A DNA stretch of 47,011 nucleotides from Bacteroidota bacterium (GCA_021813905.1 JAKAJH010000025.1:1-47011); one strand, 5' to 3'. Shown: positions 2-18,832, counted from the first letter of the stretch. Numbers and translations: made by a program. Notes: generated by a model not told the origin, from the letters alone.

Positions 2-2113
2 GCAAGCATCTTTGACGAGAAAGCGAATCCGTACCTGCAAGTCCTCAATTCGCCGCAAGGTTGGTTGGGGATTGATTCGAGTGCCACATCCCTGCAAATG
101 TATTACGAGACAATCTCGTACGGCTTCAAGACTGCCTATCCTGACCCTGTGCAGGCTGCTCAGATCGCTTACTCATTATGGAAACAGGCACGCCGTGATC
201 TCAACCGGCGCTACGACAACACGTGGGATTATTCGGTGGAGGGAAACATCGGCGGTCCGCTGTCGGAGCGGGCGCGGATGTTTTTGGCGATGCAGGTCGA
301 GAATGAATGGCCCGTTCTCCCCACGCCGGAGCCGGACGTGAACCGCCAACTGATGGGCAACGTGACATACGATGTGGCGGGGGGACTGAGCCTGCGCCTC
401 AGCGGCACATACTCCAGCCGGAACGGCCACCTGTTGCCGGGATTGCGCAGCAGCAACTATTCGAACTTCTACAACTGGCTGTGGGATCGCGTCATCGGGC
501 TCCCGAATCTGCGCGAAGATAACGGGCAGATCGGCGTGCGGATGGTCTATGCCTCCAGCAACAGCACGATGTACGAGATGAAGGTGAACTACCTGAGCAC
601 CGCCTATGCCGACGGTGTGAAGGTGGCGTCGCCCGACCGGTACGTCTCGGACGATCTCAAGCTCGATATCTGGTCGTACTACAATACTCCTGACGGTTTC
701 CGGCTCGGCCAGATGGATAACGATTTCCGCGACGAAAAGACCAAAACGTTCTCCGTGGACGCATCGATCACCAGTCAGCTGTCGTTCTCGCATCTGCTCC
801 TCGCCGGCCTGCAATTCAACTCCTACGCGATCAACGTGAACAATCAGACGACGATGTCCACGCAGGGCAACGAGCGGCTGGAGGTGTATCGGGCGAGTCC
901 GTACGAACTGGGGATCTACGCGCAGGACAAAATGGAATTCCAGGGCATGATCGCCAACGTTGGCTTGCGGCTGGATGTTTATAATCAGAACGTGGACTTC
1001 TACACCGACCAGTTCTCGCCCTTCCGCATCCGCACGAGCGACACGTCCTGGTACTATGACCCTGCACTGGCGCACCGGCAAACGACGCCGGTCATCGGCC
1101 GGCTGCAGCCCCGGGTCGGTATCTCATTTCCCGTGTCGGTCTCGACGGTGTTCCACCTGAATTACGGCTCGTTCATGCAGCGTCCGTCATTCGAGCGCAC
1201 GGTCTATCTGCGCCTGCCGCGGGAGAACTACAACTCGATGACGCTCGGCAATCCGCTGCTGAAGCCGCAGGATACGAAGAGCTACGACGTGGGCCTGATG
1301 CAGGCGCTGGGCGAGGGTTTCACGCTCGACGTGAGCGGGTACTACAAGGATGTCAAGAACCTGATCCAGCGGGCGTTCTACTACGATCAGATGGGGACGA
1401 GCTACAGCACGTTCGTGAACCGTGACTACGCGGACATCCGCGGATTCAGCGTCAAACTCGTCCGGCACCGCGGGATCATCAGCGGATCGTTGAAGTACAA
1501 TTACGGTGTCGCGACCGGGAAGAGCGGCAATGCCTTCCTCGCCACGCCGGTCTACAAGGAGGAGCCGTCGGGCGGCGTGATCGCCGAACTGCCGAGTCCG
1601 AAGGATATCGTCCTGGACTTCGACCGCACCCACAATCTGATCCTGAATCTGAACATCGCGACCCCGGAGAGCTGGGGCCCCGACGTGCTCGGCACGAACC
1701 CGCTGGAGAATTTCACGGTCAGCGTGAACTCGTTCGCGCGCAGCGGCCGGCCGTACACCTATGATATGCAGGGGCTGGGGCTGATCAACAACAAGCGGTC
1801 ACCGGCGGAATACAACACGAACCTGAAGATCAGCCGGAAACTGCCGCGCTTCTTCGGCACGACCGCCACCGTGTACATGGAAGTGCTGAACGTCTTCAAC
1901 CAGCGGATCTACTCGTTCAATCCCGTGTTCGGGACCGGGACGGTCGAGAATGCGGCGAACACGATCACGAACCAGAACGTGTCGCTGTATGAGCAGGATC
2001 CGGATTTGCTGCGCTACTATTCGGTGTCGGGATCGTTCCTGGTGGATCAGACCTTCCTGCTGTACGGGAATTCGCCCCGGTCATACTACATCGGCCTTGC
2101 GTTGAACTTCTAA
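2..2113 (+). CDS. TonB-dependent outer-membrane receptor, C-terminal part (5' truncated by window)
   Basis: The frame is open from the first bases of the window, so the N-terminal signal, any carboxypeptidase-like domain and the plug lie upstream; an internal TTG at 65 is not a credible start. What remains is a long run of alternating beta-strands typical of a 22-strand barrel. It includes the family-typical segment GNPLLKPQDTKSYDVGLM, where the barrel is re-entered after an extracellular loop, and it ends in LALNF with the terminal aromatic residue used for outer-membrane insertion. By family it imports oligosaccharides using TonB energy. It starts the uronate-polysaccharide gene run, 17 bases before the next gene. 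No SusD-like gene follows. TonB receptor call is secure; the substrate (uronic-acid oligosaccharide) is inferred from neighbours. Confidence 0.9.
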   Translation, partial: ASIFDEKANPYLQVLNSPQGWLGIDSSATSLQMYYETISYGFKTAYPDPVQAAQIAYSLWKQARRDLNRRYDNTWDYSVEGNIGGPLSERARMFLAMQVENEWPVLPTPEPDVNRQLMGNVTYDVAGGLSLRLSGTYSSRNGHLLPGLRSSNYSNFYNWLWDRVIGLPNLREDNGQIGVRMVYASSNSTMYEMKVNYLSTAYADGVKVASPDRYVSDDLKLDIWSYYNTPDGFRLGQMDNDFRDEKTKTFSVDASITSQLSFSHLLLAGLQFNSYAINVNNQTTMSTQGNERLEVYRASPYELGIYAQDKMEFQGMIANVGLRLDVYNQNVDFYTDQFSPFRIRTSDTSWYYDPALAHRQTTPVIGRLQPRVGISFPVSVSTVFHLNYGSFMQRPSFERTVYLRLPRENYNSMTLGNPLLKPQDTKSYDVGLMQALGEGFTLDVSGYYKDVKNLIQRAFYYDQMGTSYSTFVNRDYADIRGFSVKLVRHRGIISGSLKYNYGVATGKSGNAFLATPVYKEEPSGGVIAELPSPKDIVLDFDRTHNLILNLNIATPESWGPDVLGTNPLENFTVSVNSFARSGRPYTYDMQGLGLINNKRSPAEYNTNLKISRKLPRFFGTTATVYMEVLNVFNQRIYSFNPVFGTGTVENAANTITNQNVSLYEQDPDLLRYYSVSGSFLVDQTFLLYGNSPRSYYIGLALNF

Positions 2114-2130
2114 GCGTCCGGAGAGACAGA

Positions 2131-4383
2131 ATGAACAGACTTGCGATCCTCATGACGGCACTGACGCTGGGAGCGACCGGCGTGTGGGGGCAGCAGCCCG
2201 TGATGCAGCGGAACTACGAGATCCATCGGCGGGGGATGCTGCACGAGACGATCTTCAATACGGGCGAGATTGGCCGCGCGTACGACCAGGGTAACTCCGG
2301 CAGCGTCGCCGGCGTTCCGTCCTTCGAATGGCCCGGCAATTCCGCGCAGATCATCGACGGCAAATCGTACAACGGGCAGTACAACTCGCTGGGCGGTGGC
2401 GTCTACCTGGGCGTGAATTCGCCCGACAGTGCGTCGCGGTGGTATGCGCTCTGTGGCGGCGTTGGCTCAAGCACCAGCGAAGTCGTGTGGGGACGCTACA
2501 GTTTTCCGCTGGGCCTCGAACGGCGCGAGAACTATCCGCTGCTGCCCGACGGGAGTATCAATCCCGGCTACGACCGGAACGAGGCGGAAGAGATCATCAC
2601 CTCGCGGTGGGCCACGAACACGGGCATCACGGTGACCCGCACCAGCCGCGCGTGGAGCAATCCGGATTATGACGATTTCATCATCTACGAATATGAGATG
2701 GAGAACACCGGCGACCGGAACGGCGACGGTGCCGTGGAATCAAACGCGACGCTCAATGAGGTGTTTGTCTGCTTCATGTATTCGCTCACGCCGTCCATGT
2801 TCGGTTATGAGCGGAAGATGAACCGATGGCGCGGATCGGATTTCGAGTCGCAGAATGCGGGCCTTGGCAACGAACGGGCGCGGTTTGACCGCCGGCGGTG
2901 GCTGAATTACACCATCGATGCCAACGGCAAACCGGATCCCCAATATTATGACGTGTGGGCCCGCACCGGCGAACACGGGGGCGGGTTGAACTCGCCGCAG
3001 GCCGTCGGATTCGTAATGCTGCATATCGATACCACGTATCTGGCGAATCCGGACGAGACCAACATCACGGCGCCGCTCTCCACGACGCAGGCTGCGGCCA
3101 TCTGGGGGCCGAACAACCACCCGAAGCAGCCGCTGGTGAATCGGCTGCACAGCTCGAGCGTCCCCTCCACCAAGCCGACCACTTCGTCGGACGGGATCAT
3201 GGATGTGCAGTACGTGTATCGCGCGAACAAGCCGATCACCGACACGATCAACTATCCGCCCGAATGGTACGGCCGGGGCAGCTTCAACTGGCGCCAGAGC
3301 CGCAAGTTCGCCGTGAGCCGGTTCATGGTGCTCGGGCCGTACGTCCTGCCGCACGGCGCGAAGATCCGGTTCGCCCTGGCGGAAGTCGCGGGCTACGGGG
3401 CGGCGCACCGGTGGCAGACCGATGCCGGCATGAAGGATGAAGGCGGCAGCTGCGGCGAGGATTGCGGCGAGGCTTCCTTCGTCGGGACGCCGTATGCGTT
3501 CAATCCGGTGCCGAACTGGGACACAACCATCACGTATGGCGGGCCGACCGGAACGGCGTTCACCTACGGCAGCACGCACCTGAGCACCTACAAGCTCCCC
3601 GACTACGTGAACTCCTCGGTCGTCACGGTCCGTGAGGTCGCCGACCGGGCGATCCAGACCTACCTGGGTGGGCCGCTGGTGAACTATGACTCCACGCAGT
3701 TCTGGCCGGAGTACACGTCGTCGCACGGCGTCTATGTCGTGCCGAACTCCGTGATCTCACCGATCTTCACCATCAAAGCGGATTCGCTGCCGCGGAATCT
3801 CCTCGAGTGGGGCACCCAGGTCGAGCCGCTCATCGGCGCGACGTTCAGCCATTACGAGGTCTCGCGCGCTCCGTCGGCGTTGGGTCCGTGGACGCGGCTG
3901 GACAGCGTCGGAGCGGAGGATCCGCGCTACTACGCGAACGGCGCGTATCATTTCCCCGACCTGCAGCCGAAGATCGGCGAGTTCTTCTATTACTCGGTGG
4001 TGTCGGTGGACACCAACGGCTTCCGGAGTCCACGGAACAACACCGTCCTGCATGAGACGCAGCAGCTGAGTCGCAACAATGGCGCGCAGACCAGGGATAT
4101 TTACGTCGTGCCCAACCCGTTCCTCATCCGGTCCGGATATATCGGCGGCAACGCGCCGGAGAACCGGCTCTGCTTCGTGAACCTGCCGCGCGTCTGCACC
4201 ATCCGCATCTACTCGTACAGCGGACAGCTGGTGAACACCATCGAGCACAATGCGGACGTGGATGCGCAGTCGTGGTACCAGGTGACGCGCAACAACCAGC
4301 AGATCGCGTCGGGAATCTACTTCTTCGTGGTGGACACGCCGGGCGGCACGAGGTCGCACGGGAAATTCGTGGTCATTCGGTGA
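2131..4383 (+). CDS. Secreted protein with C-terminal type IX / FlgD-like sorting domain
   Basis: 750 residues. The ATG has GGAGAG upstream. An N-terminal signal peptide ends near VWGQQ. The middle (about residues 20-560) is not a family I can name; it has a DRNGDG acidic loop that could bind calcium. Around 560-640 it looks like a fibronectin-III/Ig-like module. The last 90 residues begin with VVPNPF and include TIRIYSYSGQL and ASGIYFFVV, ending HGKFVVIR, the pattern of T9SS sorting domains. It sits directly between the TonB receptor and two PorV-like barrels, where a SusD-like surface binding protein would be expected. A role as surface glycan-binding partner of the receptor is inference. 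No catalytic motif was recognised. Confidence 0.75.
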   Translation: MNRLAILMTALTLGATGVWGQQPVMQRNYEIHRRGMLHETIFNTGEIGRAYDQGNSGSVAGVPSFEWPGNSAQIIDGKSYNGQYNSLGGGVYLGVNSPDSASRWYALCGGVGSSTSEVVWGRYSFPLGLERRENYPLLPDGSINPGYDRNEAEEIITSRWATNTGITVTRTSRAWSNPDYDDFIIYEYEMENTGDRNGDGAVESNATLNEVFVCFMYSLTPSMFGYERKMNRWRGSDFESQNAGLGNERARFDRRRWLNYTIDANGKPDPQYYDVWARTGEHGGGLNSPQAVGFVMLHIDTTYLANPDETNITAPLSTTQAAAIWGPNNHPKQPLVNRLHSSSVPSTKPTTSSDGIMDVQYVYRANKPITDTINYPPEWYGRGSFNWRQSRKFAVSRFMVLGPYVLPHGAKIRFALAEVAGYGAAHRWQTDAGMKDEGGSCGEDCGEASFVGTPYAFNPVPNWDTTITYGGPTGTAFTYGSTHLSTYKLPDYVNSSVVTVREVADRAIQTYLGGPLVNYDSTQFWPEYTSSHGVYVVPNSVISPIFTIKADSLPRNLLEWGTQVEPLIGATFSHYEVSRAPSALGPWTRLDSVGAEDPRYYANGAYHFPDLQPKIGEFFYYSVVSVDTNGFRSPRNNTVLHETQQLSRNNGAQTRDIYVVPNPFLIRSGYIGGNAPENRLCFVNLPRVCTIRIYSYSGQLVNTIEHNADVDAQSWYQVTRNNQQIASGIYFFVVDTPGGTRSHGKFVVIR

Positions 4384-4394
4384 GGACAGGCGCC

Positions 4395-5435
4395 ATGAGA
4401 ACACTTCGTCTTTTCTCCATCATTGCGACGACGGTCCTGATCGGGCTTCTCGCCGCGCCGGCAACGGCGCAGAAAGTGGGCGTGTCGAGTCTGCAGTTCC
4501 TGAAGGTCATGCCGACGGCACGAGCCACGGCCATGGGAGAAGCGTACGTCGCCACGGCCCGTGGCGTGGATGCCGCGTTCTGGAATCCGGCCGGTCTCTC
4601 GGCCATCACGTCGCACGAGATCACGTCCACGTACACCCTGTGGCTGTTCGATACAAAGCAGGCGGCACTGGCCTACGGCCTCTCGCTGGGAAACTGGGGG
4701 CAGTTCGCGGTGCAGTTTCAGATGACCGACATCGGCGCGATCCGCGAAACGAGCACGGATCTGCTCGGATACGATGCGAACGGCGGCTATCGCGACGGCT
4801 TCACCGGCCGGACGTTCACACCGTCGTCGTGGCTGGTGGGACTGTCGTACGGCCGGCAGCTGACGGATCACTTTTCCGTGGGCGTGACCGCCAAGTATGT
4901 CACGGAGTCGCTCTGGAACGGCAGCAGCATCACGGTGGCCAACATCTACGGGACACCCGAGACATTTCAGACGTCGGTCGGCGCGCTGCTGTTCGATGTC
5001 GGCATGGCATACGAGACGGGGTACCGGACCATCCGGATCGGCGCCGCGGTGCAGAACTTCGGCGAGCAGATCCGGTTCGCGCAGGAAGATTATCCCGCTC
5101 CGCTGATGTTCCGCCTCGGCCTCGCCGCCGACATGATCGGCACCGACGCGATCGTCGCCGAGTCGGCGGAGAACCGGCTGACCATCGAAGGAGACATCCT
5201 CCAGCCGAACGACTATGACCAGCAGCTGCACTTCGGCGTCGAATACGGCTTCGCGGATGCGCTGTTCCTTCGGGCTGGCTACAAGTGGAACTATGACGCC
5301 GACGGCCTGACGTTCGGCGGCGGAGCCCGGGTCACGGTCGCAGGCACGCGCCTCGGAGTGGATTACAGCTTCGGGAGCATGGGCGAGTACCTGACCAACG
5401 TCCATCGGATCACCTTAGGAGTGAACTTCCAATGA
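4395..5435 (+). CDS. PorV/PorQ-family outer-membrane beta-barrel protein
   Basis: 346 residues. The ATG at 4395 was chosen over an upstream in-frame start because a clean signal peptide (MRTLRLFSIIATTVLIG..., cleavage near PATAQ) begins there. Just after it comes the family signature ARATAMGEAYVA...DAAFWNPAGL, shared by PorV/PorQ and FadL-like barrels. The rest is a regular barrel ending GVNFQ. PorV in known type IX systems shuttles folded cargo to the sortase-like PorU. Here the gene lies in a polysaccharide locus beside sorting-domain proteins, so a dedicated secretion or attachment role is possible but inferred. Its stop overlaps the start of the next gene by four bases (ATGA), implying translational coupling. 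Confidence 0.8.
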   Translation: MRTLRLFSIIATTVLIGLLAAPATAQKVGVSSLQFLKVMPTARATAMGEAYVATARGVDAAFWNPAGLSAITSHEITSTYTLWLFDTKQAALAYGLSLGNWGQFAVQFQMTDIGAIRETSTDLLGYDANGGYRDGFTGRTFTPSSWLVGLSYGRQLTDHFSVGVTAKYVTESLWNGSSITVANIYGTPETFQTSVGALLFDVGMAYETGYRTIRIGAAVQNFGEQIRFAQEDYPAPLMFRLGLAADMIGTDAIVAESAENRLTIEGDILQPNDYDQQLHFGVEYGFADALFLRAGYKWNYDADGLTFGGGARVTVAGTRLGVDYSFGSMGEYLTNVHRITLGVNFQ

Positions 5436-6904
5436 CAACCCGAACGCGTTTCATCGCCTGGTATGTGGCGCTCGCGCTGGCGTCCGGACAATTCCTGATG
5501 GCGCAGGATGTGGCTCCGGCGCTGAACTTCCAGCGGGCCGACAATTCCGTTGTTGGAAGCGCACGGGCGCGGGCAATGGGCTCGGCGGCGGTGGCGGCCG
5601 GCAACGATGCCACCGCAATGTTCGTGAACCCCGCGATCCTCGGTGACCTTTCGGCGTTCGAAATCCGTCTGGGCGGACAGGCGTTTCATCCTGTCGACGG
5701 GGAGACGCAGGAGTGGCATCCCACGCGCTTGTATGCGGAGCTGAGCCTGCTACTGGAGAATCGCATGGGCGGCATCATCAACCAGGGGCAGGACTCTGCC
5801 GCAGTGGCGCTCAAGCACGCCTACGACAATCTCGGTCCCGATTGGAAACGCAGCGCCGACCTCGCACGGCCGTCCCTGGCGGCCGCGGCACTCCCGCTGG
5901 CCAACGGCACGGACAAACTGGTGGTGGGCCTGGGATACGCGGAGATGATGAACCTGAACTACTACTTCCAGAACAACAACGCGCTCGATCCCAACATCGG
6001 CCAGATGCGGCCGTCTCCGGTCGCCCGGCTCACGTCGAAGAATGATTCTTTGCCGGTACAGTGGTTCCATTACATTGCGCAACGGGAGGGAGGGGTGTAC
6101 GGGATCACACCGTCGATCGGCTTCGGATTCGGTGAGCATTTCCGTCTCGGCATTGCTGCGACGATCCTCACCGGGAAGACTGATGACCGGGAGGACCGGG
6201 TCATGCGGGGCCTCATTACGCTGCGGGCCAACAGCGCCAGCACGTACAACGTCTTCAGCGTCGATTCCATCGACGCCCGAACCCTCCGCAGCGGAACGTC
6301 CACCTTCTCGGGCACGATGCTGAATATCGGCCTGCTGTGGAAAGGAGAGTCGTACTCTGCCGGTCTGTCGATCAAGCCGGCGTACACGCTGGTCCGCGAC
6401 TGGGAGCGCACGGTCCGGGCGGATTCCATGGGATCGTCCGCCACGTACACGGAAACGGGAACCGACAAGCTTCAGGTCCCGGCCATCGTCAGCGTGGGAC
6501 TGGCGATTTATCCGTCGGAACGGGTCGTCGTCGGCATGGACTACGAATTTCGCGGCTACGGAAGTTCGACGATGCTTCTGAACAGCGACACCACGATCGC
6601 GCCCTGGGTGAACACGCAGGTATTCCGTCTGGGCGGCGAATACCGGGCGGCGCGATGGCTGAAGGTCCGGTTGGGATATCGGGAGGATGTGCAGGCGATC
6701 GTTCCGGCGGGTGCGGCCATCCTCGACGATCCGGTGCGCGGATCGGTGTACTCGGCCGGCCTCGGCTTCACGTTCGGTCCGTGGGCGGTGGACCTGGCCT
6801 ACGAGTACGGAGTGACACAATTCTACGACGCGTGGGAATCGAACATCAACTATCAGACGCACGAATCTCACAATCTCACGGTCGAGTGCGGATACCGGTT
6901 CTGA
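5432..6904 (+). CDS. PorV/FadL-like outer-membrane beta-barrel protein (second copy)
   Basis: 490 residues with a signal peptide ending near FLMAQ. The early segment SARARAMGSAAVAAGNDATAMFVNPAILG matches the PorV/OmpP1-FadL start-of-barrel signature. Alternating strands continue to the C-terminal aromatic VECGYRF. It overlaps the preceding PorV-like gene by ATGA and has TAGGAG upstream. It is about 140 residues longer than its neighbour, mostly in the middle, so it is a diverged paralogue rather than a recent duplicate. Two activities fit: a type IX accessory barrel, or a hydrophobic/oligosaccharide channel. The sequence does not decide between them. Confidence 0.72.
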   Translation: MTTRTRFIAWYVALALASGQFLMAQDVAPALNFQRADNSVVGSARARAMGSAAVAAGNDATAMFVNPAILGDLSAFEIRLGGQAFHPVDGETQEWHPTRLYAELSLLLENRMGGIINQGQDSAAVALKHAYDNLGPDWKRSADLARPSLAAAALPLANGTDKLVVGLGYAEMMNLNYYFQNNNALDPNIGQMRPSPVARLTSKNDSLPVQWFHYIAQREGGVYGITPSIGFGFGEHFRLGIAATILTGKTDDREDRVMRGLITLRANSASTYNVFSVDSIDARTLRSGTSTFSGTMLNIGLLWKGESYSAGLSIKPAYTLVRDWERTVRADSMGSSATYTETGTDKLQVPAIVSVGLAIYPSERVVVGMDYEFRGYGSSTMLLNSDTTIAPWVNTQVFRLGGEYRAARWLKVRLGYREDVQAIVPAGAAILDDPVRGSVYSAGLGFTFGPWAVDLAYEYGVTQFYDAWESNINYQTHESHNLTVECGYRF

Positions 6905-6922: not shown

Positions 6923-7678
6923 ATGATCGATCTGACGAACAAGATTGCACTGGTCACGGGCGGAGCACGCGACATCGGACGGGCGGTGTCGGTCCGGCTT
7001 GCGCAGCAGGGCGCCCGCGTGGCACTGAACTACTTTGACAACCAGCCGGACGCCGAAGAGACGATCCGCCTCATCGAGGCGAACGGCGGCAAGGCGATCG
7101 CGGTCCAGGGTGATATGACGAAGATGACCGATGCCGAGCGATTCGTCGCCGCGGCGAAGAAGGCCTTCGGCGGTCCGGTGCACATCCTGGTCAACGTGGC
7201 GGGCGGACTCGTCGGCCGGAAGACGGTTGCGGAGATGGACGAGGCGTTCTGGGATTTTGTTATCGGCCTGAATTTGAAGTCGGTCTTCCTGGTCACCAAA
7301 GCCACGCTGCCGCACATGGCGGACGGCGGCGCGATCATCAACTTTGCATCGCAGGCGGCGCGGGACGGCGGCGGACCGGGAGCCACGGCGTATGCCAGCG
7401 CCAAGGCCGGCGTCCTGAACTTCACACGCGGACTTGCCAAAGAGCTCGGCCCGCGGCGGATCCGCGTCAACGCGATCTCGCCGGGGATGATCAATACGAC
7501 GTTTCATAACACCTTCACCAAGCCGGAAGTCCGGCAGCGCGTGGCCGCGTCCACGCCGCTCGGCCGGGAAGGGGAAGCACCCGAGGTGGCGGATCTGGTT
7601 GCCTACCTGGCCTCCGACAATGCCTCATTCATCAACGGCGAGTCGGTGGAGATCAACGGTGGCGTGTTCTTCTCCTGA
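6923..7678 (+). CDS. Short-chain dehydrogenase/reductase, probable DEH (unsaturated uronate) reductase
   Basis: 251 residues, a classical SDR. The Rossmann nucleotide motif is TGGARDIG (12-19), NNAG is altered to NVAG (91-94), and the catalytic tetrad is N117, S143, Y157 and K161 (YASAK). It ends in the usual NGESVEINGG segment. SDRs in alginate loci reduce 4-deoxy-L-erythro-5-hexoseulose uronate (DEH) to 2-keto-3-deoxygluconate with NAD(P)H. Position just before a PL17 oligoalginate lyase and KdgF supports that role. The exact substrate is inferred; a gluconate- or sugar-dehydrogenase activity is the alternative. Cytoplasmic, with no signal peptide. Confidence 0.7.
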   Translation: MIDLTNKIALVTGGARDIGRAVSVRLAQQGARVALNYFDNQPDAEETIRLIEANGGKAIAVQGDMTKMTDAERFVAAAKKAFGGPVHILVNVAGGLVGRKTVAEMDEAFWDFVIGLNLKSVFLVTKATLPHMADGGAIINFASQAARDGGGPGATAYASAKAGVLNFTRGLAKELGPRRIRVNAISPGMINTTFHNTFTKPEVRQRVAASTPLGREGEAPEVADLVAYLASDNASFINGESVEINGGVFFS

Positions 7679-7694
7679 TCGGAAAGGGCTTGTG

Positions 7695-9908
7695 ATGACG
7701 CTTTCTCGACGTCTTCGGCTGACGCTGCTCGCCGGATTCTTTCTGACCGGCGGCGCGCTGGGTCAGGGCGGCCACCCGAATCTGGTGCTGACGGCGGCGG
7801 ACATCGCCGCGATCCGCGAAGGACTGGGCAGATACCCGCTGTTCGACCGGTCATTCGCGGAGGCCCGCGCGGTGGTCGAGTCGGCCCTGGTGCGCCCGAT
7901 GGATGTCCCGGTGCCGAAGGACGCCGGCGGCTACACGCACGAACGGCACAAGCGGAACTACACCGAGATGCAACTGGCGGGCGTTCTCTACGCGGTGACG
8001 AAGGATGGACGCTATGCGCGCTTCATCCGCGACATGCTGATGAAATACGCCGCACTGTACCCGACGCTTGGGACGCATCCAAAGGCGGCATCGGAAGCGG
8101 CGGGACGCCTCTTCTGGCAGACGCTGAATGAGACGGTCTGGCTCGTGTACACGACGCAGGCGTATGACTGCGTGTATGACTGGCTGAGCCCTGCGGAGCG
8201 TCGTACCATCGAGAGCAAGGTGCTGCGTCCCCTGGCACGGTTCTTCGTAAAGGAGCATGCGGCGGAGTTTGACCGGATTCACAATCACGGCACCTGGATG
8301 GCGACCGCGGTCGGCCTGACCGGCTACGTGCTGGGCGATACGGATCTCGTGGCGAAGGCGTTGTACGGCACGAAGAAGGACCACACGACCGGATTCCTCC
8401 GTCAGATGGACCTGCTCTTTTCACCCGACGGCTATTATACCGAAGGGGCGTATTACGCACGCTACGCCATCATGCCGTTCTTCCTGTTTGCGCGGGCGAT
8501 CGAGAACAACCAGCCGGGCCTGCACATCTTCGAGTATCGGGGCCAACTGCTCCGCAAGGCTCTCTCCGCGGCCCTGCAGCTGACGAATACCAACGGGGCA
8601 TTTGTCCCGATCAATGATGCCCTGAAGGAAAAAACGTACCTCTCTCCGGAGATCGTGATCGCCCTTGACGAAACCTACGCGATCTACGGTCACGACCCGG
8701 GTCTGCTGGGGATCGCGAAGCAGCATGGGACCGTCATGCTCAGCGGTGCCGGACTGGCGGTTGCGCGCGGACTCGCTCGCGTACCGGACCCCCCGCCGTT
8801 TGCCTATGCCAGCATGGAAATGCGGGACGGGGGAGACGGCTTGCAGGGAGGGGTCGGCCTGTTGCGTTGGGGTCCGGTGGAAAATCAATCATTCTTCCTC
8901 ATGAAATACACGGCCCACGGCATGTCCCACGGCCACTACGACAAGTTGTCGATCCTGTACGACGATGCGGGCCGGGAGATCCTGCAGGACTACGGCGCCG
9001 CACGGTTCATCAACGTCGAGCCGAAAGACGGCGGACGCTACTTGCCGGAGACGAAGAAGTATTGCATGCAGACGATCGCACACAATACGGTGACGGTGGA
9101 CGAGCGGTCACACTACGACGGGAAGATCGAAGTGTCGGAGCAGTATCACGCCGACCGGCATTTCTTCTCCGCGTCTGATTCATCGCTGCAGGTGGTCAGC
9201 GCGAAGGTCGACAATGCGTATCCGGATGTCCGGATGCAGCGCACGAGCGCGATGGTGGCCGATCCGCATTTCATCCGACCGGTGATCATCGACGTGTTCC
9301 GGGTGATCTCGGGGAGCGAGCACCAGTATGATCTCCCGTTCTACTTCATGGGGCATCTGATCGAGACAAATGTCAGCTATTCAGCCCACGACCGCTCCCG
9401 AGCACCGCTGGGTGCGGCAAACGGCTATCAGTATCTCTGGAACGAGGCCGAGGGTCCCGCCAAGGGTATGACGCAGTTCTCGTGGCTGGCGGGCGAGCGG
9501 TTCTATTCGGTGTCCACCGCGGCGGACTCGTCCACGCAGGTCTACTTTGTCCGGATTGGCGCGTCCGACCCGAATTTCGACCTTCGCCCCGAAGCAGGCG
9601 TGATCCTGCGGACGCGGGCGAAGGAGCATGTGTTCGCATCGGTGATCGAGCCGCACGGCGTGTGGGATGGGAACGAGGAGTTTTGCCGCGGAGCCCGCAG
9701 CAGCATCACCGACATCCGTGTATTGGCGTCGACGGACGAAGGAACGGTGGTCGGGATCACGGACCTCGACGGACTCTCGTGGCAGTTCATGGTCACGAAC
9801 GGACCGGCCGATGATGGAGCGGCACATGCAATTACCGTGGATGGGACCACGTACCGCTGGACCGGCAACTTCCATCTCATTCGTCAGGCAGAATCCGGGA
9901 GGGAATGA
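7695..9908 (+). CDS. PL17-family oligoalginate lyase (heparinase II/III fold)
   Basis: 737 residues. The ATG at 7695 was chosen because AAAGGG precedes it and a signal peptide (cleavage near GALGQ) starts there. The N-terminal half is an alginate-lyase alpha/alpha toroid. The segment VPVPKDAGGYTHERHKRN and the following YPTLGTHP...GRLFWQTLNE are hallmark PL17 stretches. Likely catalytic residues are N197 and H198 (HNHGTW) and Y254 (GAYYARY), at the spacing of the Asn-His-Tyr set of characterised PL17 enzymes. The C-terminal half is a heparinase II/III beta-sandwich with the His cluster HGMSHGHYD (408-414). Known PL17 enzymes release unsaturated monouronate exolytically from alginate oligomers. 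No sorting domain, so probably periplasmic. Confidence 0.88.
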   Translation: MTLSRRLRLTLLAGFFLTGGALGQGGHPNLVLTAADIAAIREGLGRYPLFDRSFAEARAVVESALVRPMDVPVPKDAGGYTHERHKRNYTEMQLAGVLYAVTKDGRYARFIRDMLMKYAALYPTLGTHPKAASEAAGRLFWQTLNETVWLVYTTQAYDCVYDWLSPAERRTIESKVLRPLARFFVKEHAAEFDRIHNHGTWMATAVGLTGYVLGDTDLVAKALYGTKKDHTTGFLRQMDLLFSPDGYYTEGAYYARYAIMPFFLFARAIENNQPGLHIFEYRGQLLRKALSAALQLTNTNGAFVPINDALKEKTYLSPEIVIALDETYAIYGHDPGLLGIAKQHGTVMLSGAGLAVARGLARVPDPPPFAYASMEMRDGGDGLQGGVGLLRWGPVENQSFFLMKYTAHGMSHGHYDKLSILYDDAGREILQDYGAARFINVEPKDGGRYLPETKKYCMQTIAHNTVTVDERSHYDGKIEVSEQYHADRHFFSASDSSLQVVSAKVDNAYPDVRMQRTSAMVADPHFIRPVIIDVFRVISGSEHQYDLPFYFMGHLIETNVSYSAHDRSRAPLGAANGYQYLWNEAEGPAKGMTQFSWLAGERFYSVSTAADSSTQVYFVRIGASDPNFDLRPEAGVILRTRAKEHVFASVIEPHGVWDGNEEFCRGARSSITDIRVLASTDEGTVVGITDLDGLSWQFMVTNGPADDGAAHAITVDGTTYRWTGNFHLIRQAESGRE

Positions 9909-9912
9909 CAAC

Positions 9913-10263
9913 ATGGATTCATTGAAGGAACGACGATTCGCGCACATGGCGGATGTGGCCTGGGATGCGGCCGGTGACGGCGTTCGCCGGAAGGTGGGAC
10001 CGTACGACGAGACGATGACCGCCGTGCTCGTGGAATTCGACAGGGGCTCCGTGGGATATGTCCACACTCATCCGCACCATCAGATCACATACATCCGGCA
10101 CGGATCATTCGAGGTCACGATCGGGGAGGAGAAGCAGGTGCTGGGCGGCGGGGATTTCTACTACATCCCAGCGGACGTACCGCACGGCGTCGTGGCGCTT
10201 GAAGACAGCGCCCTGGTGGATTTCTTTTCGCCCTGCCGACTCGATCTGGTCAAAGGGAAGTGA
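9913..10263 (+). CDS. kdgF: KdgF-like cupin, unsaturated-uronate ring-opening enzyme
   Basis: 116 residues forming a single cupin barrel, starting at the ATG four bases after the PL17 stop. The metal and substrate motifs match KdgF closely: HTHPHHQITY (51-60), PADVPHGVV (H91), and LVDFFSPCRLDL with D103, F105 and R109. KdgF converts 4,5-unsaturated monouronates (from pectin or alginate lyases and unsaturated uronyl hydrolases) to their linear keto forms, feeding the KDG branch. Its place right after a PL17 exolyase, in a locus with KduD, KdgK and Eda, fits exactly. Cytoplasmic. Alternative: a generic sugar-binding cupin; I consider this less likely given the FSPxR tail. Confidence 0.85.
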   Translation: MDSLKERRFAHMADVAWDAAGDGVRRKVGPYDETMTAVLVEFDRGSVGYVHTHPHHQITYIRHGSFEVTIGEEKQVLGGGDFYYIPADVPHGVVALEDSALVDFFSPCRLDLVKGK

Positions 10264-10268
10264 GTGCG

Positions 10269-12890
10269 ATGGCGAGGGAGCGCATCCGTATCACGGGAAA
10301 GATTGCGGGCCTCGTTGCCCTCTGCGCGGTTTTCGCCGCGGGCGCGCGATCGCAGTCGATATACGATACGTACAGCGGTTTCACGGTTCCGACCACGCCG
10401 ATGCTTCCCCTCACCGAACAGCATCCGAGCCTCCACTTCACGACGTCGGAACTTCCGGCGCTGCAGGTGAAGAAGGCCGATCCGGCGTATGCCGCGCTCT
10501 GGTCGAGGATCACGACGAACATCGCGAAGTTCCTGGGGAAGACGGTGTCCACTTCGAGCGTCGGCGACCGGCCGAAGATCGCAATGTACGGCGCGTTCGC
10601 GTGGATCATGAACGGCGATACCGTGGGACGGAATCATGCGGTGGAAGCGTTGCTTTCGGCATATGATAACGTGCCGCAGACGGCCGTGTCGACCTCGTTC
10701 GACAAGCCGTATGACGAGATCTACCGCGCCACGTGGATCCAGGATTTCTGCACGGCCTACGACTGGCTGGCGCCGGTGCTGAGCCCGCAGCAGGATTCCT
10801 CGGCCCGGGCCCGGATCATCCGGGAAGCGAACCTGCTGTGCGACAACATGCGCTCCGGAGTCAAGTATGCGTCGCGGCCGCACAATCATCGGTCAAAGCC
10901 GGCGTACGGAGTCGGGACAGCAGCGTTAACGCTCTCTTCCGATCCCAATGCGTCCCGCTGGCTCGACTCAGCACTGACGAATGTCAATACGGTCACGAAA
11001 TACCAGTTCAGCTCCGACGGGATTTACCGCGAGGGACCGCACTATTACATTTACACGCTTGTCAACGCGATCCCGTTCCTCTGGCAATACAAGATCGTGT
11101 CGGGCGTGGACCTGTTTCCCGCCTATCAGGCCGCGTTCGAGTGGCCGGTGCTCATCCGCGACCAGCGGGGATGGATGCCGAACACGGAGGATGCGAATGT
11201 GAAGCCCGCCCCGACGCACATGGTGGCTGCCGCCTACCCGACTGCGCCGACGCGACTGCACAGCACCGCACCGCTTGCGTCCATTCTGCAATGGAACTGG
11301 GCGACAACGACGTTTTTTACCGTGGACTACACGGGCGCGACGAATGAGATCTGCTGGGACATCGACGAATTCCTGTTCTGGGATGCCTCCATCCCGTCCG
11401 TGGCGCCGGACATCGATCCGACGCTGCGGCTCGCGACGGGGGAGGTGGTGTTCCGCAACCGCTGGGCGGGCAGCGATTCGACGGGACGGTATCTGCTCTT
11501 TCATGCCGTGGCTGCCGCCGACAATCACGACCATCCCGACCAGCTGAGCTACGTCATCAATGCGCGCAACTCCTGTCTTGCCATCGACGCCGGCTACGGG
11601 CAGGACCAGACCAATTATGCGACGTGGTACACAAAGCCGCTCTCGCACAATCTCGTGATGACGAACAGCACGGCGCCGTCGGATTTCCAGGTCAATCAAA
11701 CGCCCCCGGACCGGCACTTTCTGGTGACGCCGTTCTTCGACCTGTCGGAAAAGCAGGCAAAGACTTCAGCCACGTCGGGCACGATCGTGCGCGGCATCGC
11801 GTGCGTCGACAAGGATTTCTGGATCGTCTACGACCGACCTTCCACCAGCCAGACAGGAGTCGTGTACGCGCTTGAGGTCCACGGCCGGGGAACGATGTCC
11901 CGGACCAGCTCCGATGTAACGTGGACAGCACCATCAGACAAGTACGGCTCGGCGGCCCGGCTTCATGCGAGCGTGCTGACGAGCGGGACGCCGACCATCG
12001 CTGATAAGACAGGCACAACCTGTCTCTTCAAGGATTCCGTTGCGCAATCGTACGTGGATGTGCAGCAGACCGGTTCCACGGTGGGATTTCTGCATCTTCT
12101 GCGCACAACCTCATCCTCCACCATGCCGTCCGCCGCGGCGGATATCAGCACCGGGAGCGGGATGTCGCTGGTGTTCACGACATCCGGCGCTGCGACCGAT
12201 CAGGTCATTGTTCCGAAAAGCACAGGCATCGCATCGGCCGGTTCGCTGGCGTCGGATGCATCGTTCGCATGGTCCCGGTCGGAAGGAGACATCCTCACGC
12301 GTTTCGCGGTCGTCGAGGGAACGCTCCTTCGATGGATGGGAAAGGATGTGCTGGTGACCGATCACCCGATCACGCTGGCGGCGGACTGGTCGTCGGCGGG
12401 CATCCGAACGCTCTCTGTGGACCCGGTGAGCGTCCCCATCTCGGTGACGCTGCATCTGGAAGGCGTGACAGCGGTCGAATTGAACAATGCGCCGATTGCC
12501 TTTTCCAGCGCCACGCCGGGCGCGTGCATATTCACGCTCTCCACCGGCGGCGCAGTGCGGATCACGGGAGGAACGACGGCCGTGGCAGGAGACGCTTTCT
12601 CCACTCTGCCATCACAGCTCATGCTCGACGCAAACTATCCCAATCCGTTCAATCCGACCACGCGCATTCGCTTCACACTTCCGGTGGCATCCCGCGTACA
12701 GGTACGGATCTATAACGGAATCGGCCAGCTGATCCGCACATTGCTCGACGCCGAGCTGGGCGCCGGGGTTCATCAGGGAGTATGGGACGGACGGGATGGG
12801 CTCGGTCGGGATGCGGCGAGCGGCGTCTATGTCTTCGAAGTGAACACGAATGCGGCCAACCGTCGGACCAAAGGTCTGCTGCTCCGCTGA
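10269..12890 (+). CDS. Secreted heparinase II/III-like polysaccharide lyase with type IX sorting domain
   Basis: 873 residues. The ATG at 10269 has AAGGGAAG eight bases upstream; a GTG at 10260 overlapping the kdgF stop is an alternative. There is a signal peptide (cleavage near GARSQ). Residues about 50-350 form an alpha/alpha toroid with HNHRSKPAYG (H207). From about 380 comes a heparinase II/III-like beta-sandwich carrying NHDHPDQLSY (H420, H422, D424). The final 90 residues are a FlgD-like/T9SS domain with YPNPFNPTT and ASGVYVFEV. Family enzymes cleave uronate-containing polysaccharides by beta-elimination. The tag implies a cell-surface or released enzyme making first cuts. I cannot assign a PL family number. 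Confidence 0.75.
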   Translation: MARERIRITGKIAGLVALCAVFAAGARSQSIYDTYSGFTVPTTPMLPLTEQHPSLHFTTSELPALQVKKADPAYAALWSRITTNIAKFLGKTVSTSSVGDRPKIAMYGAFAWIMNGDTVGRNHAVEALLSAYDNVPQTAVSTSFDKPYDEIYRATWIQDFCTAYDWLAPVLSPQQDSSARARIIREANLLCDNMRSGVKYASRPHNHRSKPAYGVGTAALTLSSDPNASRWLDSALTNVNTVTKYQFSSDGIYREGPHYYIYTLVNAIPFLWQYKIVSGVDLFPAYQAAFEWPVLIRDQRGWMPNTEDANVKPAPTHMVAAAYPTAPTRLHSTAPLASILQWNWATTTFFTVDYTGATNEICWDIDEFLFWDASIPSVAPDIDPTLRLATGEVVFRNRWAGSDSTGRYLLFHAVAAADNHDHPDQLSYVINARNSCLAIDAGYGQDQTNYATWYTKPLSHNLVMTNSTAPSDFQVNQTPPDRHFLVTPFFDLSEKQAKTSATSGTIVRGIACVDKDFWIVYDRPSTSQTGVVYALEVHGRGTMSRTSSDVTWTAPSDKYGSAARLHASVLTSGTPTIADKTGTTCLFKDSVAQSYVDVQQTGSTVGFLHLLRTTSSSTMPSAAADISTGSGMSLVFTTSGAATDQVIVPKSTGIASAGSLASDASFAWSRSEGDILTRFAVVEGTLLRWMGKDVLVTDHPITLAADWSSAGIRTLSVDPVSVPISVTLHLEGVTAVELNNAPIAFSSATPGACIFTLSTGGAVRITGGTTAVAGDAFSTLPSQLMLDANYPNPFNPTTRIRFTLPVASRVQVRIYNGIGQLIRTLLDAELGAGVHQGVWDGRDGLGRDAASGVYVFEVNTNAANRRTKGLLLR

Positions 12891-12946
12891 ACGGGCAGTG
12901 GAGTGCATCGGGAGCTTCCTGGAATGTCGAATATCGGAACGCGATC

Positions 12947-14227
12947 ATGAAACATGTGCGTGGACTTCGCTGGTGGATCATCGGGCTCGTCGCGGCAGCG
13001 ACCGTGGTGAACTACATCGATCGGACGTCCCTGGCCGTGATGTGGCCGGACATTTCCCATGATGTCGGCCTGACGAAGGACGAGTATGCGACGATCGTCT
13101 CGATCTTCATGATCGCGTATGCGATCGGTCAGGCGCTGTCCGGGCGAATGTTCGACTGGCTCGGCACCCGGATCGGATTTGTCGTCTCCATCTTCGTCTG
13201 GTCCACGTCATGTGCGCTGCACGGGGTGGCGCGGTCGGTCGCGAGCTTCGCAATGTTCCGCGGATTGCTGGGCGTGAGTGAGGCCGGCAACTGGCCGGGC
13301 GCGACGAAAGCAAGCGCCGAGTGGTTTCCCGTCAAAGAACGTGCGCTGGCGCAAGGGATCTTCAATGCCGGCGCATCGCTGGGGGCGGTGATTTCCGCGC
13401 CGCTGGTAGCGACGCTCTACCTGCTTCTCGGATGGAAAGCGACATTCGTCGTGATCGGCGCGCTGGGATTCCTGTGGATCATCCCGTGGCTGATCCTCCA
13501 CCGTTCCGGTCCGGATGCGCATCCGTGGCTCTCGCCGGAGGAGCGGCAGTACATCCTCAGCGGACAGTCGGCGGGAGCGCCGGCTGCGTCGCCGGGTCGG
13601 GCGCTCTCGTGGGGCGAGCTGGTCCGATTCCGCCAGAGCTGGTCCGTTATCATCTCGCGGTTCTTTGTGGACCCAATCTGGTGGCTGTTCGTCAACTGGC
13701 TGCCGATCTACCTGGCCGAGCGATTCGGATTCGACATCAAGGAGATTGGCCTGTTCGCCTGGGTGCCGTATCTGGGCGCGGGCATCGGCAGTCTGACCGG
13801 CGGGTGGTGGTCGGGGCACATGATCGGAAGGGGATGGAGCGTGAACAAGGCGCGCAAGTGGGCGATCGTCGTCGGCGGGATCATCACCGTACCGGCTCTT
13901 GTGTTGGCTGCGTTCGCCTCCTCGCCGCTGCCGGCCATCCTGCTGATCGCGGTGGTACTCGCGGGCTTCCAGGTCATGATCAATAACATTCAGACGTTGC
14001 CCAGCGATTTCTTTTCGGGAAAGTCGGTCGGCTCATTGGCCGGCCTGGGCGGCATGAGCGCGGTGGCGGGTGTCCTCGTTTTCAGCACGTGGCTCGTTCC
14101 GGTGCTGAGCGCGGTCAGTTATGTGCCCGTATTTCTACTGGGCGCGTTCCTGGTGCCGCTGGGGGTGATCTCCGTCTTCGTCCTGGGCGGCGAAATCCGT
14201 CGCGTGGATGAAGGATCGCGCGCGTGA
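12947..14227 (+). CDS. MFS transporter, ExuT-type hexuronate / unsaturated-uronate importer
   Basis: 426 residues. The ATG at 12947 starts just before the first membrane helix; the in-frame extension upstream overlaps the previous gene and is not believed. About twelve membrane segments are visible. The start NYIDRTSLAVMWPDI, the loop GRMFDWLGTRIGF, and GVSEAGNWPGATKASAEWFP are typical of the anion:cation symporter family (ExuT, GudP, DgoT). These import hexuronates, aldarates or galactonate with protons. In this locus the natural cargo is the monouronate or unsaturated monouronate made in the periplasm. The stop overlaps the kduD GTG start (GTGA). Confidence 0.82.
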   Translation: MKHVRGLRWWIIGLVAAATVVNYIDRTSLAVMWPDISHDVGLTKDEYATIVSIFMIAYAIGQALSGRMFDWLGTRIGFVVSIFVWSTSCALHGVARSVASFAMFRGLLGVSEAGNWPGATKASAEWFPVKERALAQGIFNAGASLGAVISAPLVATLYLLLGWKATFVVIGALGFLWIIPWLILHRSGPDAHPWLSPEERQYILSGQSAGAPAASPGRALSWGELVRFRQSWSVIISRFFVDPIWWLFVNWLPIYLAERFGFDIKEIGLFAWVPYLGAGIGSLTGGWWSGHMIGRGWSVNKARKWAIVVGGIITVPALVLAAFASSPLPAILLIAVVLAGFQVMINNIQTLPSDFFSGKSVGSLAGLGGMSAVAGVLVFSTWLVPVLSAVSYVPVFLLGAFLVPLGVISVFVLGGEIRRVDEGSRA

Positions 14228-14991
14228 CGGTGGGTGGTCATCCGCTCTTTGATCTTTCCGGTCGTGTGGCCGTGGTGACCGGAGGAAGTTCGGGCCTCGG
14301 CCGTGGAATGGCGCTGGCACTGGCGGAAGCCGGTGCAGATGTTGTTCTCGTGGATCACCGGAAGCGGACGGAGGCGGCGCCGGGGATGCCAGGATTGGGC
14401 CGGCGAACGATCTCGCTGGTGGCCGATCTTGCCGACACCGCGGCCATTGCAGGGCTGGTGGAGACGACGCTCCGTGAGTTCGGCGGGATCGATATTCTTG
14501 TGAACAATGCCGGGATCATTCGCCGAAAGCCCGCGCTGGAGTTTGCCGAACACGATTGGGACGAGGTCATGGCCGTGAACGCGCGCACGGTCTTCTTTTT
14601 GAGCCAGGCAGTCGCGCGGGTCATGGTTCCGAGACACCGCGGAAAGATCATTCATACCGCATCACTGCTTTCCTTCCAGGGCGGAGTCGTTGTCCCCTCG
14701 TACGCCGCCAGCAAAGGAGCGGTGGCGCAGATGACAAAGGCGATGGCGAATGAGTGGGCTCCGCTGGGCATCAACGTGAACGCCATTGCCCCCGGATACA
14801 TGGCAACGAACAATACCCGCGCGCTCCAGGACGATCCGGAGCTGTCCGCGCAGATCCTCTCGCGGATTCCCGCCGGTCGATGGGGCACGCCGGATGATCT
14901 GAAAGGCGCAGCCGTCTTTCTGGCGTCATCCGCTTCCGACTACATGCACGGACAGGTGCTGGTGGTTGATGGCGGATGGATGGCGCGATGA
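14224..14991 (+). CDS. kduD: KduD-like 2-dehydro-3-deoxy-D-gluconate 5-dehydrogenase (SDR)
   Basis: 255 residues, GTG start overlapping the transporter stop. Motifs are TGGSSGLG (19-26), NNAGIIRR (94-101), N119, S147, Y160 and K164. The segment VPSYAASKGAVAQMTKAMAN and the late INVNAIAPGYMATNNT followed by RIPAGRWGTPDDL are strongly KduD-like, as is the VDGGWMAR end. KduD reduces 2,5-diketo-3-deoxygluconate (DKII) to KDG, downstream of KdgF and KduI in the pectin pathway. No KduI gene is in the window, which raises the question of whether this enzyme works on DEH directly. Cytoplasmic. Confidence 0.83.
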   Translation: MTVGGHPLFDLSGRVAVVTGGSSGLGRGMALALAEAGADVVLVDHRKRTEAAPGMPGLGRRTISLVADLADTAAIAGLVETTLREFGGIDILVNNAGIIRRKPALEFAEHDWDEVMAVNARTVFFLSQAVARVMVPRHRGKIIHTASLLSFQGGVVVPSYAASKGAVAQMTKAMANEWAPLGINVNAIAPGYMATNNTRALQDDPELSAQILSRIPAGRWGTPDDLKGAAVFLASSASDYMHGQVLVVDGGWMAR

Positions 14992-15039
14992 AACGGACGT
15001 CGATACAATTTCTCCCTTAATGAGGAGCGGACAAATTCC

Positions 15040-15999
15040 ATGCATCCCGTGATCAGCAAGATCGGAACGATCGGAGTGATTCCGGTGGTCGTTCTGGAAG
15101 ATGAAACGAAGGCGGTCCCGCTGGCCAAAGCGCTGGTGGCGGGCGGTTTGCCGAGCATCGAAGTGACGTTCCGGACGAAGGCGGCGGCGGCATCGATCGA
15201 GGCGATTGCGTCGGCCGTACCGTCGATGCTTGTCGGTGCCGGGACCGTGCTGACCGTTGATCAGGTGAAGACGGCGATCGGCGCAGGGGCGGAGTTCGTT
15301 GTCGCCCCCGGATTCGATCCTGCCGTGGTGGAATATTGTCTCGCCCATGACATCCCTATCCTGCCCGGTGTCCTGGCCCCCTCGGAGATCGGTCGCGCGC
15401 TGTCCCTCGGGATCAATGTGCTGAAGCTCTTTCCGATCGAAGCGGTCGGGGGGCTTAACTACCTGAAAGCCGTCAGCGGCCCGTTCGTGGAAGCCCGGTT
15501 CTCACCGAGCGGCGGTGTCGATCTCTCGAACTTTCTGTCCTATCTCAAATTCCCGTCCGTGCACGCCTGCGGCAGCAGTGCCATGGTCAAGGCGGAACTC
15601 ATCGCGGCCGACAGATTTGATGAGATCGAACGACTGACCGCCGAGATGGTGCGCATCATGCTCGGATTCACGGTCCGCCATGTGGGCGTGAACACGGAAG
15701 ACGAGAAGCATGCAAAGGCAGCGGCGGATCTGCTCACTCATAACTTCGGATTCGGCATGCGCGAAGGCTCCTCTTCGTTCTTCGTTGCGGAACAGATCGA
15801 AGTGACGAAGTCGAAGCGGGACAGCGGTCACGGCCACATCGCGATCGGGACCAACTTCATGGACCGGGCGATCGCGCATCTCGGGCGGAAAGGAATCAGC
15901 ACCAGGCCGGACACGGCGGCGGTCCGGAACGGATCGATCCACACGGTGTACCTTGATCTGGAGATCGAAGGATTCGAGGTGCACCTGATCCAGCTGTGA
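15040..15999 (+). CDS. eda: KDPG aldolase (Eda) fused to a C-terminal VOC/glyoxalase-like domain
   Basis: 319 residues, ATG preceded by GAGGAGC. Residues 1-205 are a KDPG/KHG aldolase TIM barrel with catalytic E41 (IEVTFRT), GAGTVL (67-72), Schiff-base K130 (NVLKLFPIE) and phosphate loop FSPSGG. It cleaves 2-keto-3-deoxy-6-phosphogluconate into pyruvate and glyceraldehyde-3-phosphate, the last step of uronate breakdown. A stand-alone Eda is about 210 residues; here about 110 more follow. They start FTVRHVGVNT and contain GHGHIAIG and EGFEVHLIQL, the beta-alpha-beta-beta-beta repeat of VOC proteins with possible metal ligands (His, His, Glu). The function of the extension is unknown. Confidence 0.88.
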   Translation: MHPVISKIGTIGVIPVVVLEDETKAVPLAKALVAGGLPSIEVTFRTKAAAASIEAIASAVPSMLVGAGTVLTVDQVKTAIGAGAEFVVAPGFDPAVVEYCLAHDIPILPGVLAPSEIGRALSLGINVLKLFPIEAVGGLNYLKAVSGPFVEARFSPSGGVDLSNFLSYLKFPSVHACGSSAMVKAELIAADRFDEIERLTAEMVRIMLGFTVRHVGVNTEDEKHAKAAADLLTHNFGFGMREGSSSFFVAEQIEVTKSKRDSGHGHIAIGTNFMDRAIAHLGRKGISTRPDTAAVRNGSIHTVYLDLEIEGFEVHLIQL

Positions 16000-16040
16000 T
16001 GAACGAAATGTTCGTGGAACGAGACACAAGGAACTCTGCC

Positions 16041-17243
16041 ATGGAACGGATCTCCATTTCACTGATGATCCCGCTGCTCGCAGCCGTGATCGCCAGCGTT
16101 CCTTCTGCGGTGAACGCCCAGCCGCGGGTTTACCTGATGAATCCATCCCGTCTGGAAGAGGTGCGCAAGCTGCCGCCGGGCGACCGGTCCGTCGCGCCGG
16201 CGCTGAAGCGACTGCTCCGGGATGCGGAGAAATCCCTCCGGGTCCATCCGCTCTCCGTCACCCAGAAGGACTCCGTCCCGCCGAGCGGAGACAAGCACGA
16301 CTTCATGAGCCTTTCGCCGTACTGGTGGCCGGACCCGAACAAGCCGGACGGAAGACCGTACATCCGGCGCGATGGAGAGTTCAATCCGGAGCGGGAGGCA
16401 TTCCCCGACGAAAAGAACCTGGATCGGATGATCGCCGCGGTCTCCACGCTCGCGCTCGCACACTTCTTCACCGGCGAGGGTTCGTATGCGGCGCACGCGA
16501 CAGAGCTGCTCCGGGTGTGGTTCATTGACTCGGCGACGCAGATGAATCCGAACCTGAATTACGCCCAGGCGATCCGCGGACGCACGGAAGGGCGCGGAAG
16601 CGGGATCATTGAGTCGCATCAGTTTCCGATCCTGCTCGATGCGATCGACCTGCTCGCCGGAGGAGGAGGGATCGCGGAGACGGACGTGAAGGCACTGCGC
16701 ACCTGGTTCTCGGAGTATCTGACATGGCTCCGGGAGAGTCCGAACGGACGGCACGAGCGGGATGCGAAGAACAATCACGGCAGCTGGTACGACGTACAGA
16801 TCGTCCGCGCGGCGCTTTTCGTCGGCGAGCGCAGCCTCGCGCTGAAGACGCTGGAGGAGAGCAAGCAGCGCCGCATCGCCTCGCAGATCGAGCCCGACGG
16901 TACCCAGCCCATGGAATTGGCGCGCACGAAGGCCGAGGGCTATTCGACATTCAATCTCCAGGCCCTGACCACGCTTGCCGCGATCGGAAAGCGTGTCGGC
17001 GTGGATCTGTGGGAATACGAGACCGCGGACGGACGGAGCATCCGCAAGGCGCTCGACTTCATGCTGCCGTACTATGTGGGAGAGAAGACTTGGACATATC
17101 CGCAGATCGCCCCGATCAAGACGAAGGATGTGTGGATGCTGCTGCGCGCGGCGGCGTCTCTCGGCGGCGCCCGATACGCGGAGGCGGCAGCACAGCTCAG
17201 CATCCCCAACGCCGCATCCGACCGGATCAATTTGATTTACTGA
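16041..17243 (+). CDS. Alginate-lyase-family polysaccharide lyase, PL38-like (copy 1)
   Basis: 400 residues. The ATG at 16041 was chosen over the in-frame start at 15996 because AAGGA precedes it and a good signal peptide (cleavage near AVNAQ) begins there. The alpha/alpha-toroid alginate-lyase fold shows HDFMSLSPYWWPDP, MNPNLNYAQAIRG, the NNH motif at 244-246 (AKNNHGSWYD), and the presumed catalytic Tyr Y301 in RTKAEGYSTFNL. This NNH-plus-Tyr arrangement is shared with PL5, and the YWWPDP signature with PL38 glucuronan lyases. Probably periplasmic, since no sorting domain is present. The PL38 assignment is from memory of family signatures; alginate as substrate remains possible. Confidence 0.75.
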   Translation: MERISISLMIPLLAAVIASVPSAVNAQPRVYLMNPSRLEEVRKLPPGDRSVAPALKRLLRDAEKSLRVHPLSVTQKDSVPPSGDKHDFMSLSPYWWPDPNKPDGRPYIRRDGEFNPEREAFPDEKNLDRMIAAVSTLALAHFFTGEGSYAAHATELLRVWFIDSATQMNPNLNYAQAIRGRTEGRGSGIIESHQFPILLDAIDLLAGGGGIAETDVKALRTWFSEYLTWLRESPNGRHERDAKNNHGSWYDVQIVRAALFVGERSLALKTLEESKQRRIASQIEPDGTQPMELARTKAEGYSTFNLQALTTLAAIGKRVGVDLWEYETADGRSIRKALDFMLPYYVGEKTWTYPQIAPIKTKDVWMLLRAAASLGGARYAEAAAQLSIPNAASDRINLIY

Positions 17244-18823: not shown

Positions 18824-18832
18824 CAGAATCTC

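Follow-up and report, generated by a model that had tools for sequence, protein, structure and literature searches.

Results

A four-gene module at the head of an alginate utilisation locus

The window, that is, the whole stretch of DNA analysed (47,011 nucleotides from a Bacteroidota bacterium), corresponds to a complete contig, C7, of a host genome of 3.08 Mb in 90 contigs. It opens with four open reading frames, all on the + strand, which head an alginate utilisation locus. The first (2..2113, +) encodes the barrel part of a TonB-dependent receptor (703 aa, open at the 5' end; PF00593, 71.9 bits, 1.2e-19). The second (2131..4383, +) encodes a secreted protein of 750 aa, hereafter TAG, with a sorting tag of the type IX secretion system (T9SS) that scores just above the type A cut-off (TIGR04183, 24.9 versus 23 bits). 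The third (4395..5435, +) is an outer-membrane barrel of the PorV/PorQ family (346 aa; NF033709, 207.4 bits, cut-off 90 bits), and the fourth (5432..6904, +) a FadL/Toluene_X-like barrel (490 aa; PF03349, 35.8 bits, cut-off 29.7 bits). Receptor and TAG genes are separated by 17 bp and TAG and PorV-like genes by 11 bp, while the two barrel genes share a 4-bp ATGA overlap; the next gene, for a short-chain dehydrogenase/reductase (SDR), follows after 18 bp. The receptor, tagged protein and two barrels thus form one close run, as an earlier note on this DNA had described. That note had taken both barrels to be PorV-like, which holds for the first; the second is FadL-like and not a PorV.

Since the window is the complete contig, sequence upstream of the receptor gene is unreadable, and because the contig begins inside that gene the encoded receptor is without its signal peptide, CarboxypepD_reg-like domain and plug. 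Full-length paralogues comprise CarboxypepD_reg, Plug and barrel, and complete orthologues have 940-1020 aa. TAG is composed of a Sec signal peptide, a beta-rich region of about 500 residues, an FN3-like stretch (judged by eye, at about residues 540-650) and a C-terminal sorting domain (CTD; 4096..4380, +) with the motif NLPxxCTIRIYTxxGDLVxTI...W...SGIYxxxV...GKFVVIR. A lipobox pattern occurs in only 3 of 41 TAG homologues and is conserved in none. No relative was found with a TAG profile among PDB sequences, nor were TAG relatives found in the viral contigs searched. An AF2 model built from 3 sequences had a mean pLDDT of 35 and yielded no usable fold or interface with the receptor.

The rest of the locus (6923..25781, +) supplies a nearly complete alginate pathway, with all genes on the same strand. 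The SDR gene (6923-7678) is followed by genes for a PL17 oligoalginate lyase (7692-9908), a KdgF-like cupin (9946-10263), a tagged heparinase-II/III-type lyase (10260-12890), an MFS transporter (12947-14227), a second SDR (14266-14991), a KDPG aldolase (15040-15999) and a PF05426 alginate lyase (15996-17243), and then by genes for a GH88-like protein (19819-21027), a second PF05426 alginate lyase (21024-22199), a GH2 protein (22196-24670) and a KDG kinase (24663-25781). The note had named alginate or glucuronan for binding experiments; judged by the enzymes of the locus, namely PL17, the two PF05426 lyases, the KdgF-like cupin, KDPG aldolase and KDG kinase, the substrate is alginate and not glucuronan. 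Between the lyase genes lies a tagged protein with a G8 domain (17294-18823), a relative of which is found upstream of the Rhodothermus marinus alginate module (L137:2709-4286). Beyond the locus, a 1194-aa protein (25989-29573) weakly matches a short part of SprA (residues 574-655); in most relatives, proteins of similar length show the same weak match.

The gene order is conserved and follows the substrate

Relatives of TAG (P0002) were found in 18 of 41 near genomes, and a tag-free TAG profile (A1) matched in 35 of 395 genomes of the phylum, within the host's class and in other families. The order receptor, TAG, PorV-like barrel, FadL-like barrel, on one strand, is present in all 38 complete loci of the phylum, a set that includes genomes closely related to each other. 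The survey of gene order proposed earlier therefore shows an arrangement that is conserved across several classes of Bacteroidota and is not unique to the host genome. Chance association of unrelated genes is ruled out by the same 38 loci. Pairwise distances of the four genes are correlated over 34 loci (r 0.81-0.96).

One genome in the survey, G179, consists of contigs of 3,261,604 and 125,133 bases, which agree with the sizes of the chromosome and plasmid of R. marinus DSM 4252, and by size we take it to be that strain. At L137, the lengths of hypB, hypC, kdgR and kdgF equal those of the published R. marinus Alg-PUL to the base. The published cluster runs tonB, hypA, hypB, hypC, alyRm1, alyRm4, kdgR, kdgF, alyRm3, with hypA annotated as T9SS and hypB as PorV/PorQ; hypA-C were left hypothetical, with no role given (PMC9530828).

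The neighbours of the module are of two types, one alginate-related (PL17, PL6, heparinase II/III and PL6-like DUF5123 proteins) and one pectin-related (GH28, GH88, PL9, pectinesterase and UxaC). With substrate labels that were strict and enzyme-based, such that a LacI regulator cluster alone (L153) was not accepted, a single alginate/pectin change accounts for the labels on every one of the four gene trees, compared with a mean of 7.8 changes after shuffling and a single change in 0 of 2000 shuffles. G179, by size R. marinus, contributes a module to both clades, and its second one adjoins GH28 and PL9 genes. Given the single label change per tree and the presence of both types in one genome, the module follows substrate and not species.

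T9SS-tagged proteins at L136:1926-6032 and in one protein cluster were seen only beside pectin-type modules. They have roughly 500-860 aa and no Pfam domain except the tag, and the one tested had no PDB relative; they are possibly an undescribed pectin-active family.

A three-gene core recurs within and between genomes

The host genome has about ten occurrences of a core made up of receptor, tagged protein and PorV-like barrel; the three genes adjoin each other on C8, C29, C53 (two copies), C50 (two copies), C74 and C68, and a variant is found on C56. The FadL-like gene is absent from these three-gene paralogous modules and was found with the four-gene (polyuronate) clade only, so that a general helper role in secretion is improbable for its product. 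Distances for receptor, tagged protein, PorV-like barrel and CTD among nine paralogous modules of the host genome, the window's included, are correlated (r 0.53-0.74, p 0.004 or less), and for the receptor and tagged protein the values are r 0.74 and p 0.0002; co-duplication alone could produce this pattern.

Outside the four-gene set, a module-type CTD was accompanied on its own strand by a receptor gene and by one of the PorV family in 20 of 20 further loci from eleven genomes. Sixteen of these have the order receptor, tagged protein, PorV-like barrel, one has the PorV-like gene second and the tagged protein third, and in three the tagged protein lies upstream of the receptor-PorV pair. The neighbours of the core vary among loci. 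In L221-L240, the product of the gene directly before the receptor often ends in an enzyme-type CTD of the ordinary kind. One three-gene module (L224) is carried by the 125,133-base contig C2 of G179, presumably the R. marinus plasmid. On C67 of the host genome (L060:7232-10661, +), two PorV-family genes (81 and 115 bits) come directly after that of a weakly tagged protein of 521 aa, and there is no receptor; this is possibly another barrel-anchored pair.

SusD is absent from the module

The earlier note's proposal of an uptake module that works with no SusD is supported. There are no matches to SusD (PF07980) in the host genome, and no SusD gene was found near any orthologous four-gene module read. 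The family is present in 38 of 149 genomes of the class. A SusD gene just upstream had been named as the finding that would overturn the proposal; as far as the contig edge allows, this fails, judged from the SusD-free orthologous loci. The second such finding, an order unique to this genome together with the lack of a predicted interface, likewise fails so far as it could be examined, the order being shared by 38 loci. Where module-bearing genomes have SusD, its genes sit on contigs other than those of the four-gene modules or, if the genome is complete, at a distance of more than 100 kb from them, so that SusD and the module are not mutually exclusive within one genome. In G175 one module-type CTD and a SusD gene are some 13 kb apart, and in the published R. 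marinus xylan cluster a SusCD pair lies close to a TonB receptor and hypothetical tagged proteins (PMC6987092); from these two cases, module-type and SusCD systems can adjoin. A full-length orthologue and a full-length paralogue of the window receptor score 54.7 and 69.9 bits against the SusC/RagA model (TIGR04056, cut-off 368 bits), in their N-terminal part only.

A distinct class of sorting domain

The module CTDs are without the YPNPFNP motif of enzyme cargo, and the enzyme CTD motif as a whole (YPNPFNP...LGREVATLV) is distinct from the module type. Models of the TAG-type (T) and enzyme-type (E) CTDs, built solely from other genomes, were applied to the host genome. Module CTDs score 50-135 with T and 9-19 with E, the copy on C68 being lower (T 31, E 10), and ordinary cargo shows the reverse; copies C53b and C74 were left out of this scoring, both having been part of an earlier CTD comparison. 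PorZ (T 30, E 11) groups with the modules, and PorU (T 28, E 31) is intermediate between the classes. A genome-wide CTD search placed all nine matches above 90 bits in modules. The next matches, at 50-56 bits, are the copy on C68, which is in a module, and one on C49 with no PorV-family gene found nearby. The latter is a 1097-aa protein (L065:8477-11770, -) with a module-like CTD (T 31, E 10) and an ending similar to that of the C68 protein; neither a PorV-family nor a receptor gene was found on its contig. Across the phylum, module-type CTDs were present in 47 of 99 sampled genomes, with up to 15 copies each, and many families are without any.

The best PDB matches of the CTD profile, although weak, are to PorZ (5m11, 6e-4) and PorU (6za2, 3e-3). 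No type B CTD and no PorP/SprF family was detected in TAG or the PorV-like barrel (P0002 and P0003) with NCBIfam models at E<=0.1, and PF13585 reached 18.6 bits, under its cut-off of 27. In Porphyromonas gingivalis the CTDs of PorZ and PorU are uncleaved, and the proteins are anchored on PorQ and PorV, respectively (PMC5562754, PMC11285876, PMC10202324). Cognate PorV-like barrels may shield CTDs from cleavage, according to one review (PMC10202324).

The PorV-like barrel is not the T9SS PorV, and the fourth barrel is FadL-like

SprA, PorU, PorV, PorQ and PorZ, the T9SS parts tested in the host genome, all score above their cut-offs, and the PorV-like barrel of the window is none of them. Against the PorV equivalog model (NF033710, cut-off 250 bits) it reaches 82.9 bits, compared with 257 bits for the host's T9SS PorV on C25; it is nonetheless homologous to the PorV of the SprA-PorV structure 6h3i (4.6e-9). 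For the FadL-like barrel, the nearest named model is that of BamG (NF053685, 55.8 bits, cut-off 250) and the nearest solved structure is also BamG (9n2d, 4.3e-4), a homologue of FadL which, within the BAM complex of Bacteroidota, carries a lipoprotein at the surface (PMC12578637). The suggestion that both barrels are dedicated helpers of the tagged protein stands in part: a role of this kind for the PorV-family barrel fits the CTD evidence, and the FadL-like barrel is missing from the three-gene modules.

Discussion

The four-gene and three-gene modules are real and widespread. We consider it an even chance that the four-gene module represents an alternative to the SusC/SusD pair that imports polyuronate oligosaccharides with no SusD, the substrate being alginate here and pectin in sister loci. 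The receptor would be the transporter of the oligosaccharides, and TAG, which is not a lipoprotein, would replace SusD as the surface partner that captures substrate. TAG is predicted to be synthesised with a Sec signal peptide and to undergo type IX export, and its variant CTD may be recognised by the dedicated, adjoining PorV-like barrel. By analogy with PorZ on PorQ and PorU on PorV, the CTD would stay uncut, and TAG would remain docked on the barrel beside the receptor. We infer CTD retention, this docking, substrate binding by TAG and a receptor-TAG complex, while the gene order and its conservation, the co-inheritance with substrate type, the CTD class and its link to the PorV-family and receptor genes, and the absence of SusD are direct observations. 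The FadL-like barrel would be an extra component confined to the polyuronate clade, where it may act as a second anchor or help in assembly or transport.

Linkage and matching trees would equally be expected if co-regulated genes had duplicated together without any contact between their products. It is conceivable, though on balance unlikely, that TAG and the PorV-like barrel form a separate unit for glycan binding or adhesion, while the receptor imports alone and the linkage serves co-regulation only. Receptors that work with no lid exist in other phyla, the AF2 model gave no usable receptor-TAG interface, and in L230, L232 and L237 the TAG gene is two genes away from the receptor-PorV pair; such a division of labour has to be set against the joint occurrence of all three genes in every one of the 20 further loci despite varied neighbours, and against the correlated distances among paralogous modules of a single genome.

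A rather less probable reading treats TAG as ordinary T9SS cargo, delivered via the canonical PorV and cleaved by PorU, after which it is set free or attached to LPS, with the PorV-like barrel otherwise employed, for example in FadL-like transport. The host does encode a canonical PorV, the TAG CTD is above the TIGR04183 cut-off, and type A CTDs are reported to use a single PorV (PMC12618676), but the module CTDs are unlike those of all ordinary cargo of the host, and they track with the PorV-like gene. It is very improbable that the two barrels provide additional channels by which small uronate products cross the outer membrane, with TAG plugging or regulating them. Membership of both in the FadL superfamily would fit, since FadL proteins are transporters; FadL channels, however, carry hydrophobic compounds, whereas uronates are polar, and homologues of PorV/PorQ are carriers and anchors of proteins.

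The proposed SusD-less system resembles SusC/SusD in the architecture of its receptor (CarboxypepD_reg-like domain, plug and barrel, as seen in full-length paralogues), in the closely spaced partner gene, in the adjoining lyases and hydrolases and in the many paralogous copies per genome. It differs in that a SusD homologue is missing, the partner has a T9SS tag and no conserved lipobox, the receptors score 55-70 bits against the 368-bit SusC cut-off, and a PorV-like barrel is co-encoded. The R. marinus Alg-PUL has the identical four genes in the identical order, and its description proposes no generality, CTD class or mechanism (PMC9530828); beyond that paper, searches of the open-licence literature found no description of the module, which is apparently undescribed. 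The PorZ-PorQ and PorU-PorV pairs likewise combine a surface protein, an uncleaved CTD and a PorV-family anchor, and the module CTDs are most like theirs, but those pairs serve cargo processing in single copy, whereas the modules occur in many copies, each with a TonB receptor. In the SprB-SprF type, a tagged gene is again followed by its own barrel gene, with a type B CTD and a PorP/SprF-like barrel (PMC12618676, PMC9143113); the CTD and barrel families are different, and the proteins are adhesins, not receptor partners. BtuB-BtuG of Bacteroides is a TonB-dependent transporter with a surface partner other than SusD (PMC10404256); unlike TAG, BtuG is a lipoprotein, and the substrate is vitamin B12.

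With somewhat less assurance, at slightly under even chances, we suggest that the modules represent a second, independent way to give TonB receptors a surface partner, by means of T9SS export, an uncleaved CTD and a PorV-like barrel of their own. If so, a function would be found for numerous paralogues labelled 'PorV/PorQ family' and large proteins labelled 'T9SS sorting domain', whose annotation at present is by domain only, and the suggestion that cognate PorV-like barrels protect CTDs (PMC10202324) would be put to the test. Searches for polysaccharide utilisation loci that are keyed on susCD pairs would miss module loci without them, for which the module would offer a new handle. Deep-branching Bacteroidota, including Ignavibacteria-like lineages, Rhodothermus and others, would then import nutrients with the help of type IX secretion, using it where gut Bacteroidota employ surface lipoproteins.
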